Assembly (NCBI GenBank): GCA_017447165.1 | Contig: JAFSOD010000004.1 | Span: 62,001 to 126,000 of the forward strand | Origin: Bacilli bacterium | Lineage (GTDB): Bacteria; Bacillota_I; Bacilli_A; RFN20; CAG-826 | DNA: 64,000 bases | Reading direction: 5' to 3' | Shown here: in pieces, positions 44,001 to 54,002 of the stretch | Layout: every line of letters starts with the position of its first letter | How positions within the stretch are numbered: position 1 is the stretch's first letter | Made by a program: the position numbers and the translations under genes | The notes under the pieces: generated by a model | Databases searched by the model: none | The model's input: only the letters and a program-made list of their open reading frames with translations | What the model was told of the DNA's origin: nothing

Positions 44001-45008
44001 TTATTGTTCCGCTTTCTTGTCTGCGTCTTCAAACATTTTTAAGAGATCTTCGACGGTTAACTTATTTTTCTTTTCTCCAGAGACGTCTAAGATGATGTGG
44101 CCAAGATGGAACATAATTAATCGATCTCCATAAGTTAAAGCGTCTTTCATATTATGAGTAACCATTAAGGTAGTCATATGGTTATCTCTAACCGCCTTAT
44201 CAGTTAACTCTAAAACTTTTCTAGCGGTCTTAGGGTCTAACGCTGCGGTGTGTTCATCAAGAAGAAGAATTTGTTTAGTTAAATCAAATCTAGAGATTTT
44301 AGAAGTATATTCATTTCTAATTTCAACTTTTCTTGCTTTTCTTTCTTCTTTAGAAAGAGATTCATTATTTAAAGCAGTTAAAGCTTGCTTTCTTTCTTCT
44401 TTGGCGTCTTTAAAGCCCTTTAAGACTTCTTCTTTGGCTTTTGACTTATTGCCTTCGCAGAATCTCACATAATCGCGTTTAATGATTCTCTCGCTTGGCA
44501 TTTGTCTCATCGTCGCCATTAAAAGGGTTAAAGCTTGTCTTTGTCCTCCAGACATCACACCAACTTTTTGATTTAATCTATCTTCAAGGTTAAGTCCGAA
44601 CTTTTTAAGTTCTTCAATAAAGTATTTCTTATGGCTTGCGGAGAATCCCCATTTCCATGGTTTATGAGTTCTACCCCTTGCATAAGCAATCTCTAAATTT
44701 TCATAAACAGACATATTCGCAGCAGTACCCACCATAGGGTCTTGGAAGACTCGACCAAAATAGCCTGCTCTTTTATATTCCGGCATATGAGTAATATCAA
44801 AGCCGTTAATCGTGACTTTACCACTATCAGGAGTTAAAGAACCACTAACGATATTTAAGGTTGTGGATTTACCACTACCATTACCACCAATAATAGTGAT
44901 AAATTCACCTGGCTTAACTTGTAATGAGATATGGTCTAAAGCGGTTCTTTCATCTTCTTTGTTGCCGCTGATGTTAAACTTCTTTACAACGTTAACTAAC
45001 TCAAGCAT
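44001..45008 (-). CDS. ABC transporter ATPase (TrpZ-like) with insertion before Walker B
   Basis: 335 residues from the ATG at 45008, which has GGAGG upstream; an earlier start would add eight residues translated from the permease. Walker A GGNGSGKST (41-49), Q-loop FQDPMVG (~88), signature MSGGQ (152-156), Walker B ILLLDEH (247-253), H-loop VTHN. Signature and Walker B are about 90 residues apart instead of ~20: a charged Lys/Glu-rich helical insertion fills residues ~170-242 (KSKAKEEVLKGFKDAKEERK). The rest is standard for the ABC_sub_bind-linked importer family. It overlaps the permease by 8 bases. Confidence 0.88.
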   Translation of the reverse strand: MLELVNVVKKFNISGNKEDERTALDHISLQVKPGEFITIIGGNGSGKSTTLNIVSGSLTPDSGKVTINGFDITHMPEYKRAGYFGRVFQDPMVGTAANMSVYENLEIAYARGRTHKPWKWGFSASHKKYFIEELKKFGLNLEDRLNQKVGVMSGGQRQALTLLMATMRQMPSERIIKRDYVRFCEGNKSKAKEEVLKGFKDAKEERKQALTALNNESLSKEERKARKVEIRNEYTSKISRFDLTKQILLLDEHTAALDPKTARKVLELTDKAVRDNHMTTLMVTHNMKDALTYGDRLIMFHLGHIILDVSGEKKNKLTVEDLLKMFEDADKKAEQ

Positions 45009-45936
45009 GTTTCTCCCTCCTTTCTTTAACAAGGTAGATAATACCTCGTTTGATTAAAGGTAAGGATAAGGCAAAGACAATTAACACTGCATAGAGCAAG
45101 TTAAGCAAGTTGCCGTTTAAGCCTAATTCAATCGCAACATTAATAATGACAAAGTAGATAATCGCACCAATAGAAATAGCGATTAAGCTACGTTTAAAGG
45201 TCTTATTGCCAAAGATTGTTTCTCCAATGATAATGGAGGCTAAGCCCACTACTAAGTAGCCAGTAGAATAGCCAACTGAGCAACCTCTATTTGATTGACA
45301 AATAAGTGCGCCTGCTAAACCGATTAAAGCATTAGATATTACTAACGCCACAATAGAGGCTTGTTTCGTGTTAATGCCTTGCGCTCTAGACATCTTCTCA
45401 TTGATACCAGTCGATCTAATAGCGATACCGTATTCAGTTCCAAAGAAGAAATAAATAATAACAAAGATAAGAACCACAAAAGCAAGCATAATGCCAGTTT
45501 TAATAAGTGGTCTAAAGATAGGATCTCCATAATAAAATAAGGAGAACACTGTTTCATTGTCAGTGTCTAAAGATACAATATTAATAAATGAACTATCTTT
45601 ACTTGTTAATCCTAAGATTAATAAAGCGATTGAACTTGTCGCGGTCATAGTGATAATACCGCATAAAATCTTCGGAATTCTAAGTTTAGTGTAGAACACG
45701 GAAGTTAAATAACCACATAAACCTCCACCAAGAGTCGCTACTAAAGTAGCAACGAATGGATTAACACCAATCTTGATTAAGGCAATGGCAAAGGATCCAC
45801 CAATTAACAAACTTCCTTCAGCGGTTAAATCCGCAAAATCGAGAATTCTAAAAGTGAGGTAGATACCAAGGGCTAATAAACAGCAAGGTAATCCGCTAGT
45901 TAATATGTTGAAAATAACACTAACTATATAAGGCAT
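45001..45936 (-). CDS. ABC transporter permease (TrpY-like)
   Basis: 311-residue permease of the branched-chain/ribose-type superfamily (BPD_transp_2), with eight or nine hydrophobic segments. LRILDFADLTAEGSLLIGG near the N-terminus and GTEYGIAIRSTGINEKMSR are hallmarks of the family paired with ABC_sub_bind proteins. It ends with a TGA inside the next gene's start region (ATGCTTGA), showing that TGA is a stop here. Begins three bases after the binding-protein stop. Confidence 0.9.
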   Translation of the reverse strand: MPYIVSVIFNILTSGLPCCLLALGIYLTFRILDFADLTAEGSLLIGGSFAIALIKIGVNPFVATLVATLGGGLCGYLTSVFYTKLRIPKILCGIITMTATSSIALLILGLTSKDSSFINIVSLDTDNETVFSLFYYGDPIFRPLIKTGIMLAFVVLIFVIIYFFFGTEYGIAIRSTGINEKMSRAQGINTKQASIVALVISNALIGLAGALICQSNRGCSVGYSTGYLVVGLASIIIGETIFGNKTFKRSLIAISIGAIIYFVIINVAIELGLNGNLLNLLYAVLIVFALSLPLIKRGIIYLVKERREKHA

Positions 45937-45939
45937 ATA

Positions 45940-46983
45940 TTAATCAATAGAAACGTCTGTAAAATCTGCTAAAACATCAGCAGGAATGGTAAATCCTAAT
46001 TGAGCGTCTTCGATATTTGAGGAATTATAAACTTTATTCCAATCATCTTCGTCTAATGATTTTTCAATATCGATTTCGTGAGTTTGTTTAGTGCCAGAAA
46101 TAATTTCAGCTGCCATTTCTCCAGCTCTAGTTCCTAAGTAATTATAAGAAACACTATATGTAATGTGTCCACCATTAAGCATTCCTTCTTCTCCGACGAT
46201 ACATAAGACATGGGCGTTATCAAGAATTGGCTTAATAATGTTCATATTACTTGCGCATAAATTATCGGTAGGAATATATAAGACATCAATCTTATTACAT
46301 AAGGATGTACATTTTGCTTGCAAGTCAGCAATACTGGTACATGGCTCATCAAAGATATTAGCAGCAGATAAACCTTCACTTAAAGCTGCAGCTTTTGCTC
46401 TTCTAGCTTGAACAGCGGAATTAGACTCACTGTTGGTGTAGAAAATACCAAATCTAATTTGAGATGCTTCTTTATGAGGCATACACTTCTTGATTAATTT
46501 GACTTGTGATTCTACTGGGTTATCATCGCTAGTACCAGTTACGCTACCATCGTGATGTGGAAATGCTTTTGCTAATTTTGCATCAACTGGATCAGTAACC
46601 GCAGTAAATAAGATTGGTTGTTTTTTACCAGCTTCATCTCTTTCATTTTTTAAATGAATTGCACTTGGAGTAGCAATGCCAAGCATGATGTCACAACTTG
46701 CCACTAAAGATTTAGCATAGGTCACATCATCAACATCTTTAACAAAAGAAAACTTCTCAATATAATTGATTTGTTTTCCTGCCACTAGTGGTGAACCACT
46801 TAAAGCTGCTTTAAAACTTAATCTAGCAGTCTCTAATGCATCCGCAGGAGCGTATTGCAAGATACCAACATTAAATGATGACTTACTTGGGTCAATCTCC
46901 GCTCTATCTGGACCAGCATCTTTACTACAAGAAGCTAAACCCATTAAAGCGACAAGGGGAATGATGAATAAACTTTTTCTCAT
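45940..46983 (-). CDS. ABC transporter substrate-binding lipoprotein (TrpX-like)
   Basis: 347-residue lipoprotein (LMGLASCSKD) of the ABC_sub_bind family (PF04392). Visible family blocks: PILFTAVTDPVDAKL, VTGTSDDNPVESQ, DVLYIPTDNL and GGHITYSVSYNYLGTRAGEMA. In streptococci this family imports tryptophan or tyrosine-like compounds; other members move different substrates, so the ligand is open. A strong AAGGAGG precedes the ATG. The mRNA leader (47012-47190) can form alternative hairpins, suggesting ligand control. Confidence 0.88.
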   Translation of the reverse strand: MRKSLFIIPLVALMGLASCSKDAGPDRAEIDPSKSSFNVGILQYAPADALETARLSFKAALSGSPLVAGKQINYIEKFSFVKDVDDVTYAKSLVASCDIMLGIATPSAIHLKNERDEAGKKQPILFTAVTDPVDAKLAKAFPHHDGSVTGTSDDNPVESQVKLIKKCMPHKEASQIRFGIFYTNSESNSAVQARRAKAAALSEGLSAANIFDEPCTSIADLQAKCTSLCNKIDVLYIPTDNLCASNMNIIKPILDNAHVLCIVGEEGMLNGGHITYSVSYNYLGTRAGEMAAEIISGTKQTHEIDIEKSLDEDDWNKVYNSSNIEDAQLGFTIPADVLADFTDVSID

Positions 46984-47011
46984 AGGATATAAATCCTCCT
47001 TCTAAATAAAA

Positions 47012-47145
47012 TCGGTGTTTTTCGCACCGACAACTTATTTATTTTATTTCGGTGCTCGATTAACATTCTTTGTAACCAACACACCTACTAGCTAAAAAGC
47101 CAAGATCTATTGATTACCTCTTGGATAGAAATAGCTAAAGTAGAA
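47012..47145 (-). promoter_or_regulatory. Candidate riboswitch/attenuator leader of the TrpXYZ-like operon
   Basis: In minus-strand order: an aptamer-like stem CTAC..TAGCTA (47132-47143) with TAGCTAGTAG (47085-47094), enclosing CCAAGA/TCTTGG (47100-47105, 47119-47124); then GCACCGA (47049-47055), TCGGTGC (47024-47030) and CACCGA (47012-47017). The middle segment can pair with the first (antiterminator) or the third, forming a hairpin followed by TTTTATTT (terminator). No T-box AGGGUGG motif is present and I do not recognise a known riboswitch class. Confidence 0.55.
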
Positions 47146-47188
47146 ATAATACTTGTTAAACATATAATTTCTCGTTTTCTTGTTTAAA

Positions 47189-47217
47189 AATATATCACTA
47201 TAGGGTGTTATCAACAA
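47189..47217 (-). promoter_or_regulatory. Promoter of the TrpXYZ-like operon
   Basis: TTGTTG (47212-47217), 17-base spacer, TATATT (47189-47194), about 205 bases before the first start codon, leaving a long structured leader. Confidence 0.6.
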
Positions 47218-47241
47218 TTATTTTTTAATAAAATGTTATAT

Positions 47242-48693
47242 ATGCGTAAGGAAATTATCATCATTGGAGGCGGTATAGCTGGTCTTAACGCTGGTATCGA
47301 ACTTCTCCAAAAGGGACACAAAGTCACAATCATTGAAAAGAATAGTAACGTTGGCGGGTTATGCTCTGGATATGACGTTAATGGTTTTTATATTGATGCT
47401 TGTATTCACTGGCTAATGGGTACTCAAAAAAGTAATGCATTATATGAGTTGTGGAATAATATCGACGCTTTTAACGATGATGTTAGAATCATCCGTTTAG
47501 AAAATTTTGTCACTATCGACTATAACGGAACAAAAGTCAGGGTGGGTCGTGACTTAGAAAAAACTAGACTAGAGTGGATTAACATCGCTCCTGAAGACAA
47601 AAGAAACATTAATAAATTCTTTTCAATTGTAAAGGCGATGGAAAAGCTAATGAGATATGCCCTTAAATGCAAAACCAAAAAAAGTTTTATGGACTTAGTA
47701 AAAATTATTTATAAATCTCCATCCATCATCAAGTCAATGACTATGTCTAGAGAAGAATACGCGAAAAGATTTAAAAATCCAGCTTTAAAGTTTGCGGTCA
47801 CAAACATGATGACTGGCTATAACAATATGTTCTTCTTATTTGATGTTTATAGCATCTTCTCTCAAGGTAATGCCGACGTTCCAAGCGGCGGAGCCAAATA
47901 CATGGTAGAGCGAATTAAAAATCGCTTCATTTCTCTAGGAGGAATTCTCCATCTAAACGAAGAAGTTACAGGCCTAGAAATGGAAAAAGGCAAGGTTTTT
48001 GCCGTAAAAACTAGCAAAAATAACGTATTTTCATCAGACGCTGTTATTTCTACTGTAGATCCTAGATATATCCTTAAAAAACTATTAGGCAATAAATATA
48101 AAGTCAATAAACTTGAGAGAGCAAATAAGCGAGTTAAATTAAATCCAATCTCTTCTTGCTTCAATGTTTATGTTACTATTGAAGGAGACATCTCTTGTAT
48201 TGATGGGCCTACCATATATAATATCGATCCTATTCAAGTTGGTAACACTAAAGTTGATTACTTATTAGTGAGACCTTATAACTTTGATCTTGATTATTTT
48301 GTTAAAGACAATAAAACTGTTGTCTCTTTATTCGTTGATCAAAATCAAGAAGACTATCACTACTATAAATTACTAGGCGAAGAAGAATTGAAAAAAACCG
48401 AACAAAGAATATGCGATGACTTAATCGCTGCTTTAATTGATAAAAATCCAAATCTCAAAGGAAGAGTTGATTATCTCACTTACTTTGGGCCAGTAGAGTT
48501 AGAAAAAAGAACCAATACTTCTTATGGAGCCTTGCAAGCATATTCATTAACAGACTTAAAGAGCTTCTACTTCACAGAAGGTAGAGTTAAAGGGATTAAA
48601 AATCTATATTGTTGTGGTCAATGGACAAGATGTATTGGGGGAACCCCTACCGCACTACTCACATCACATCAAATTGCTAAAAAGATTAAATAG
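47242..48693 (+). CDS. CrtI/phytoene desaturase-family FAD-dependent oxidoreductase
   Basis: About 483 residues. The N-terminal dinucleotide-binding motif IIIIGGGIAGLNAGIEL with EKNSNVGGLC, and the C-terminal IKNLYCCGQWTRCIGGTP (FAD contact) match the phytoene desaturase/all-trans-retinol saturase family. No other carotenoid genes are near, so the substrate is unknown; many gut Bacillota have lone copies. I prefer the ATG at 47242 over 47233: a TAAAAT box spans 47229-47234 and overlaps the earlier ATG, and the protein family starts with the beta strand. No Shine-Dalgarno sequence; probably leaderless. Divergent from the TrpX-like gene. Confidence 0.85.
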   Translation: MRKEIIIIGGGIAGLNAGIELLQKGHKVTIIEKNSNVGGLCSGYDVNGFYIDACIHWLMGTQKSNALYELWNNIDAFNDDVRIIRLENFVTIDYNGTKVRVGRDLEKTRLEWINIAPEDKRNINKFFSIVKAMEKLMRYALKCKTKKSFMDLVKIIYKSPSIIKSMTMSREEYAKRFKNPALKFAVTNMMTGYNNMFFLFDVYSIFSQGNADVPSGGAKYMVERIKNRFISLGGILHLNEEVTGLEMEKGKVFAVKTSKNNVFSSDAVISTVDPRYILKKLLGNKYKVNKLERANKRVKLNPISSCFNVYVTIEGDISCIDGPTIYNIDPIQVGNTKVDYLLVRPYNFDLDYFVKDNKTVVSLFVDQNQEDYHYYKLLGEEELKKTEQRICDDLIAALIDKNPNLKGRVDYLTYFGPVELEKRTNTSYGALQAYSLTDLKSFYFTEGRVKGIKNLYCCGQWTRCIGGTPTALLTSHQIAKKIK

Positions 48694-52586: not shown

Positions 52587-54002
52587 TTATTTTAAGAATT
52601 TAGAAAAGAGTTTCTTCTTCTTTTGAGTGTATGGATGTTCTCTTAAAGACAAATTGAAATGTGTGTGTCCAAATAGGACTGTAGATGGATGGGTGAATTC
52701 TTTAAATCCCCATACCCCATGATATGCCCCCATACCAGAATGACCAGTTCCATTAAATGGCACTCCTTTAACCATAATTTGCAGGCATACTTCGCTGACA
52801 CAGCCACTACCATATTGTTGGGAGCTCATAACTTTCTTGGCCCACTTCTTATTTTTAGTAAATAGATATAAAGCTAAGCCGTGTTCTCTTCTAGCAATAA
52901 TATCTAATAGTTCATCAATCTTATCATTATTAAATGGCACAACTGGGAGTAATGGTCCAAAGATTTCATGATTCACAATTGGCTCATCAATATTGACAGG
53001 ATAGATAATTGTTGGGGAGTATTTATTCTTTTCTTCATCACCTTCTCCGCCGAAGACAATGCGGTCACGATATTATTCTGCTTCATTAGCGATATTCACA
53101 TATGCAGAGTGGTCGATAAGCTTAGGATATTCTTCATTTTGATAAGCGCGTTCACCAATTTGCTTAGTGATTGCGAGTTTAAGTTCCACAATAAGCTGAG
53201 GAGCAACTTCTTTGGCCACTGCAACTCGGTTAATATTGATACAAACTTGACCAGAGTTACAAATCTTAAAGAAGGCGATTTTTCTCGCTGCGTCTTTAAT
53301 ATTTGCGTCATTTCTAACGATACACCAGTTACCAGTTTCTCCACCTAATTCAAGAGTGACAGGAGTTAAGTTTTTAGATGCCATTTCCATCACATGTTTA
53401 GCAACTTTTGGAGAACCCGTGTAGAAGATTTTATCTACTCTTTCTTCTAAACAATAATCAGCAACATCATGTCCACCATCAATTACTGCGATATATTCTT
53501 TTGGGAAGGTGTTAGATACCATCTTTTTCACTACTTCAGTGATTTTTTTAGATTTAGACGACATCTTTATAAGTGCGGTGTTGCCTCCGGCAATAGAGGA
53601 CGCTAATACACCAAGAGATAATAAAACTGGGAAATTAAATGGTGAAATAATTAAAGAAACACCGTAAGGCAACTTATATACCTTTGTAAATATAGATGGG
53701 AAAGCCGCTAAACCAGAAAAATGAATCTCTGGGCGATTCCATTTTGATAAACCTTTTAGATATTCGTTTATCTCCATGACTGTGTTGCCGATATCGCAGA
53801 AAAATGCTTCTGCTTCTGAGCGACCCAAATCTTCATATAATGCTTCTTCTAGTATCTGTTGATTATCTAGAATCATTTTTTTAAGCTTTTTTAATTGTTC
53901 TTTTCTAAACTTTACTGGCAACGTTTTGCCACTAAGAAAATATTCTCTTTGAGATAGCACAAGATCATGTATCTCGGTTTTGGTGTATTCCATAAAAACC
54001 AT
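52587..54002 (-). pseudogene. Aldehyde dehydrogenase interrupted by one in-frame stop
   Basis: The frame from 54002 to 52587 would encode a ~471-residue NAD(P)-dependent aldehyde dehydrogenase. Codon 310 is TAA (53073-53075); on both sides the same frame reads normal family sequence: VSLIISPFNFP, TLELGGE (general-base Glu), CNSGQVC (catalytic Cys) before it, and RIVFGGE, VNHEIFGPLLPVV and FNGTGHSGMGAYHG after it. A CAA to TAA change would explain it. Translation from 54002 alone gives 309 residues with the active-site Cys but without the C-terminal closing part. Recent inactivation, strain variation or a sequencing error are all possible. Confidence 0.85.

Follow-up and report, generated by a model that had tools for sequence, protein, structure and literature searches.

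A leader ahead of a TrpX-like ABC importer in Bacilli is very probably a ribosome-mediated transcription attenuator that senses tyrosine tRNA charging

In the stretch of Bacilli DNA analysed here (64,000 nucleotides, hereafter the window), the three genes of an ABC importer are preceded by a structured leader, which raises the question of what signal this leader reads and which substrate the importer carries. An earlier note on the same DNA had suggested an attenuator or a novel riboswitch controlling a TrpXYZ-like transporter. We conclude that the leader is very probably a ribosome-mediated transcription attenuator, which senses the charging of Tyr-tRNA, possibly of Phe-tRNA too, and controls an ABC importer for tyrosine or possibly for Tyr/Phe. 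The importer genes and the leader are both on the minus strand and the element must be read there (Table 1). The fold of the plus strand (z -3.6) was rejected as a mirror of the same inverted repeats, the transporter being on the other strand.

Table 1. Features of the leader and of the importer genes, in positions of the window
Feature	Position	Strand	Basis or remark
Possible leader promoter TTGATA-16-TATTTT	47187..47214	minus	weak; consensus scan only
Leader peptide ORF MFNKYYFYFSYFYPRGNQ, then stop	47107..47163	minus	read directly; 18 aa, 5 Tyr and 5 Phe
Segment P (GUAAUCAAUA-G-AUCUUGGCU)	47098..47117	minus	holds the leader's last codons and stop; P:Y z -10.4; fold
Segment Y (AGCUAGUAGGUGUGUUGGUUAC)	47072..47093	minus	partner of P or X; P:Y z -10.4, Y:X z -11.0, pair counts
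Segment X (UAAUCGAGCACCGA)	47049..47062	minus	partner of Y or A; Y:X z -11.0, X:A z -7.3, pair counts
Segment A (GUCGGUGC)	47024..47031	minus	pairs with X (antiterminator) or B (terminator); permutation tests, pair counts, terminator scan
Segment B (CACCGA) and U tract (UUUUAUUU)	47004..47017	minus	3' half of the terminator; terminator scan, A:B z -12.8
Shine-Dalgarno AGGAGG of the substrate-binding protein gene	46995..47000	minus	3' of the terminator; read directly
Substrate-binding lipoprotein gene	45940..46983	minus	PF04392, Pfam 1.3e-35; CD0873 tyrosine-pocket residues (Glu, Tyr)
Permease gene	45001..45936	minus	PF02653
ABC ATPase gene	44001..45032	minus	PF00005; ORF listed from a TTG

For the ATPase gene, an in-frame ATG at 45008, eight codons past the listed TTG, is the likelier start. 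The promoter consensus scan gave 3 promoter-like sites against 1.8 expected, which is the background level in the window and counts against our reading. Three further observations concern the surroundings of the leader. Between 46984 and 47000 on the minus strand, the Shine-Dalgarno AGGAGGAU is able to pair with AUCCU directly 5' of the ATG (AGGAU-UUAU-AUCCU), a pairing that is kept in the closest relatives and might provide extra translational control. On the plus strand, a divergent gene for a phytoene-desaturase-like FAD oxidoreductase (47233-48693) lies some 70 nt away from the leader ORF; the promoter of this gene must consequently overlap the leader region, on the opposite strand. Finally, an aldehyde dehydrogenase at 52587-54002 (minus strand) appears split between two ORFs, 53073-54002 and 52587-52976, that do not share a frame, reflecting a frameshift, a pseudogene or an assembly error.

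The upstream half of the leader, previously described as a two-stem aptamer-like element, turns out instead to hold the Tyr/Phe codon run of a leader ORF and a P:Y hairpin, the leader stop lying within its 5' arm. We gathered homologues of the binding protein from the genus, the family and the order and read the DNA upstream of them, accepting as a leader an upstream short ORF with at least six Tyr, Phe or Trp in ten residues. Such a Tyr/Phe-run ORF is found in 78 of the 94 homologous loci of the order that have sufficient upstream sequence, compared to 35 of 1880 dinucleotide-preserving shuffles made from the same stretches (examples are MKNFNAFYFYYYYFNLGD, MKRFAYFYYYYFI, MKNFSFNYYYYFYKA and MKRAFYYFYSYYYPRGNQ, each followed by a stop). 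The 66 family leaders that were counted first contain 349 Tyr, 189 Phe, and no Trp. A Shine-Dalgarno match of at least 4 nt is associated with 58 of 102 leader starts and with 25 of 286 other ATGs; that of the window leader itself is weak, which counts against our reading. Between clades, the composition of the peptide is kept and its sequence is not. The leader thus holds a short, putatively translated ORF enriched in the codons of the regulated amino acid, which is what the attenuator class calls for. Short ORFs with a 'YxYEYW' pattern in family f14 (L135, L146, L147, and L158) were not counted as leaders because all of them fall within a single conserved stretch common to these loci, which probably belongs to the 3' end of the gene upstream.

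The binding protein itself provides a second line of evidence on the substrate. It matches 6hni, 3lft, and 3lkv in the PDB, the best solved relative being CD0873 of C. difficile (6hni), and its score against the TrpX model NF041285 (164.9 bits) is below the equivalog cut-off of 390. CD0873 binds tyrosine via Glu-263; at this position Ala is found in VC_1101 and SP1069, its Phe- and Trp-bound relatives, and Gln replaces Tyr-279 in the Trp binder (PMC6816091). In the residue alignment, the window protein shows Glu at the 263 position and Tyr at the 279 position. The same Glu/Tyr pair occurs in 72 homologues, 63 of which have the leader. At the first pocket position, seven homologues of the order carry Ala or Val instead, and five of these have a T-box with a UGG (Trp) specifier, above the cut-off in four cases (L087, L097, L099, and L101) and just below it in one (L096); three of the five are in genomes that also hold a leader-bearing copy of the Glu type (G027, G031, and G048). 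T-boxes with a UAC or UUC specifier accompany Glu-type proteins in other families of the class, and one with UGG accompanies an Ala-type protein, the specifier codons being read by eye from alignments. Moreover, TyrA (PF02153) is absent from the genome that carries the window and present in 14 of 14 control genomes, and DAHP synthase is found, within the genus, in two of the five genomes lacking the importer compared to none of the 14 that have it.

Together, the pocket residues, the T-box specifiers, the absence of TyrA, and the DAHP synthase pattern indicate tyrosine, and possibly phenylalanine as an additional cue. We infer that the importer carries tyrosine, which the evidence favours over tryptophan, and the label TrpXYZ is therefore inexact. 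The idea that the leader could reveal the substrate proved fruitful, as its codons also point to tyrosine. One small clade (L051, L054, L056, L058, L064, and L068) has the Glu/Tyr pocket and no leader ORF, which counts against this explanation; no Rfam element was found in the five members scanned (L051, L054, L058, L064, and L068).

The strongest competing explanation is a leader-peptide attenuator cued mainly by phenylalanine, or by both amino acids equally, and serving a general Phe/Tyr importer. Tyr and Phe codons are interleaved, so the leader alone fits either tRNA as the cue. Phe codons are also frequent in most leaders (mean of 2.4 among the best 12 residues), and the UUC (Phe) specifier occurs in several relatives that share the pocket residues and are under T-box control. 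Nevertheless, Tyr never falls below three in the best 12 residues of any dereplicated leader, whereas Phe goes down to 0, and the Glu that forms a hydrogen bond with the hydroxyl of tyrosine is retained, which makes a phenylalanine cue appear unlikely, if still worth taking seriously, and leaves tyrosine as the preferred one.

The leader ORF is followed by a chain of five complementary segments, P, Y, X, A, and B, which ends in an intrinsic terminator; P spans the stop codon in most leaders. The three mutually exclusive segments reported earlier are present on the minus strand (GAGCACCGA at 47057-47049, TCGGTGC at 47030-47024, and CACCGA at 47017-47012), and correspond to the last three of the five. 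Their final pair had been described as a terminator-like hairpin before the ribosome binding site, and an intrinsic terminator is indeed scored at 47031-47011 (TCGGTG/CACCGA, then TTTTATTT), in a scan that gave 2 terminator-like sites against 0.3 expected. This terminator, with its U tract, stands directly before the AGGAGG of the binding-protein gene, as it should in an attenuator. The minus-strand leader also folds better than its shuffles, with z values of -2.0 (206 nt) and -2.6 (234 nt) that are modest when taken alone.

We assessed covariation by comparing each duplex within a species to duplexes with partners from other species, using 38 dereplicated, largely different leaders and 2000 permutations. 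All neighbouring segments co-vary (P:Y z -10.4, Y:X z -11.0, X:A z -7.3, A:B z -12.8), none of the 2000 permutations matching the native value for any pair, while the non-neighbouring pairs P:X (z -0.6) and P:A (z -0.4) are at chance in these 38 leaders. Long-range pairing between the run of Tyr/Phe codons and the A-rich loop that separates X from A is weakly supported (z -2.4, 19 of 2000 permutations) and was kept outside the model. Pairs were also counted in an alignment of 22 leaders from the clade of the window, with slid and shuffled controls. In both states, 92-94% of the cells are paired, both sides of the stems show changes, and the values are far above those of the slid controls; double-sided changes number 24 for P:Y + X:A and 30 for Y:X + A:B, compared to 8-10 in the shuffles. 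The earlier note had made its proposal depend on the conservation of both alternative stems, and more than 92% of the pairs are kept in each state among the 22 leaders. These are mutually exclusive antiterminator and terminator hairpins with compensatory change, as found in attenuators. The decisive evidence is this comparison of leaders, in which both alternative pairings prove to be conserved.

We infer ribosome stalling, tRNA dependence, and read-through of the untranslated leader, and propose the following mechanism. The 18-codon leader peptide would be translated by a ribosome that, when charged Tyr-tRNA is scarce, stalls on the Tyr/Phe codons, 5' of P. P would then be free to form P:Y, which would release X to pair with A; with X:A formed, the A:B terminator would be blocked and the importer transcribed. 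When Tyr-tRNA is plentiful, the ribosome would arrive at the stop codon and mask P, so that Y:X and A:B would form and transcription would stop ahead of the importer genes.

This mechanism was modelled, by computation only, in 38 leaders, by removing the ribosome footprint and then folding. Before B emerges, X:A is predicted to form with a mean probability of 0.66 when the ribosome sits on the Tyr codons and of 0.37 when it is at the stop. The value drops to 0.38 when the sequence of P is shuffled, the native value being higher in 32 of the 38 leaders and lower in none, and amounts to 0.57 in the untranslated leader, closer to the antiterminated state. In the window leader with B present, the full minimum-energy fold switches from P:Y + X:A to Y:X + A:B once P is masked; the equilibrium ensemble before B hardly separates the two ribosome positions in this leader (0.86 and 0.85), which is a limitation of the model. 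On the whole, the position of the ribosome is predicted to switch the fold, as in the attenuator class.

A nascent peptide that arrests the ribosome, sensing free tyrosine in a TnaC-like manner and requiring no tRNA scarcity, might be considered instead: the leader is short and aromatic, its stop codon is within P, and arrest at this codon at high tyrosine would yield the same logic. Arrest peptides retain specific residues, however, and only composition is kept between clades here, so that we regard this as improbable.

The riboswitch half of the original proposal fares worse than the attenuator half, which the conserved exclusive hairpins uphold. In a small-molecule riboswitch, binding of the substrate to an aptamer in the upstream stems would govern termination. 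In favour of this reading, stems do form in the upstream half, and riboswitches use expression platforms of this type; but the sensor appears to be a translated Tyr/Phe-rich ORF, and between clades no aptamer core is conserved upstream, only this ORF and the complementarity. No Rfam family, known riboswitch classes included, reaches its gathering score in the leader, a match to a known leader class being one of the refutations named in the earlier note; the best weak match, SAM-II, was rejected as being at chance level (17.3 bits against a cut-off of 44). A riboswitch is thus very improbable, and we reject this reading. Least probable of all is a divergent T-box sensing uncharged tRNA directly. 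T-boxes do regulate homologues of the gene in relatives, and the genome that carries the window has one before valS. However, RF00230 has no match in the leader even at a permissive threshold, in agreement with the earlier note, and does match elsewhere in this genome; the T-box sequence and stem I are missing, and the leader spans only some 180 nt, a large part of which is coding. The T-box before valS scores well (L080, 1501-1690), and T-boxes and leader peptides coexist in this genome.

How far does the attenuator extend beyond the window? A covariance model built from 22 leaders matches 44 of the 220 genomes of the family, once each, and all matches are by their coordinates directly upstream of the binding-protein gene, except for a weak one (G095, E 0.005). 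A single match per genome beside this gene indicates an element dedicated to it. The gene also follows a comparable leader ORF in another three families of the order (f2, f6, and f8) and in families of other orders (f12, f16, and f23). In two other families, the leader of the same gene is matched by RF02863, 'Enterococcus sRNA_2410', above the cut-off in G285 and just under it in G305 (L164, L165; L143 561-742). These two leaders end in SYFR and SYFRCCL before the stop, and the RF02863 model sets in at the final codons of a Tyr/Phe leader ORF (SYFR and stop). The model has no match to the window leader or in the genome that carries the window (G000), matching only relatives of other families. 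In E. faecium, sRNA_2410 has 195 nt and gives two transcripts by Northern blot (PMC5593968), which is suggestive, as two transcripts would fit terminated leader RNAs. RF02863 may be a mis-filed leader-peptide attenuator. Weaker matches of the same model (L166, L167, and L168) occur before a BrnQ-like transporter, with the Tyr-rich leaders MNSNLTTRFYYSYYC and MNSTLTNLYDYSYYC, and before an SNF-family symporter, with the Trp-containing leader MNTFNVQLNNWRNWSY, each followed by a stop; the gene names were given by eye. These leaders are possibly Tyr and Trp attenuators of one design.

Taking these observations together, we consider it reasonably likely that the leader represents a new, tyrosine-specific class of attenuators across several orders of Bacilli, with a five-segment RNA that is ON by default and OFF only with a ribosome at the leader stop, which replaces Tyr/Phe T-boxes before the same importer and whose Enterococcaceae-like form is filed as an sRNA (RF02863). 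Leader-peptide attenuation as a kind is already known, and the anatomy read from the sequence places the leader in it; what looks new is the specificity for tyrosine, the logic of the five segments, and the occurrence in several orders of Bacilli. Our literature search, whose coverage is incomplete and which does not prove absence, found no tyrosine leader peptide.

A transporter family of uncultured gut and rumen Bacilli that is usually annotated just as 'TrpX-like' or 'sugar-family' gains a likely substrate, tyrosine, because the sensor is written in the codons of the leader. One gene family appears to use three sensors, a Tyr leader peptide, a Tyr/Phe T-box, and a Trp T-box, in step with the pocket residues, which makes leader ORFs a practical predictor of substrate. 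In addition, one Rfam 'sRNA' family may need re-annotation, and, with its five segments, the leader departs from the textbook trp and his attenuators in a way that can be tested.

Leader-peptide attenuation is a textbook mechanism. As in the proteobacterial attenuators (trp, his, phe, leu, ilv, and thr), we find a short ORF rich in the codons of an amino acid, alternative hairpins, and an intrinsic terminator, with a stalled ribosome leading to read-through; here, however, the amino acid is tyrosine, the target is a transporter, and, of the five segments, the first would be left free when the ribosome stalls and covered when it reaches the stop codon. The classic trp (four segments) and his (six segments) schemes have the first segment masked during stalling, and termination in the absence of translation, whereas here an untranslated leader is predicted to favour read-through.

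Closer to the window, the uORFC-13-1 motif upstream of Acholeplasma aroF, from a related low-GC lineage, is likewise a candidate attenuator based on a uORF with Phe codons and concerned with aromatic amino acid metabolism, but it precedes a DAHP synthase gene, has at least one Phe codon and no Tyr run, and is known from 24 examples in one genus and environmental sequences (PMC8632094). Attenuation by leader peptides in place of T-boxes is shared, within the Firmicutes, with the His attenuators of Erysipelotrichales, Peptostreptococcaceae, and bacilli (PMC9413887, PMC2965389) and with the BCAA attenuators of S. aureus and Listeria (PMC6123439), which differ in responding to other amino acids and in controlling mostly biosynthetic or synthetase genes. 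RF02863 recognises the leader of this gene in two other families, but is filed as an sRNA and differs from the window leader in its sequence and stem details (PMC5593968). Finally, the Trp T-box of Streptococcus trpXYZ likewise controls an orthologous kind of ABC importer by transcription attenuation, but does so with a tRNA-binding RNA that has no leader peptide and responds to tryptophan (UGG specifier) (PMC9382623).
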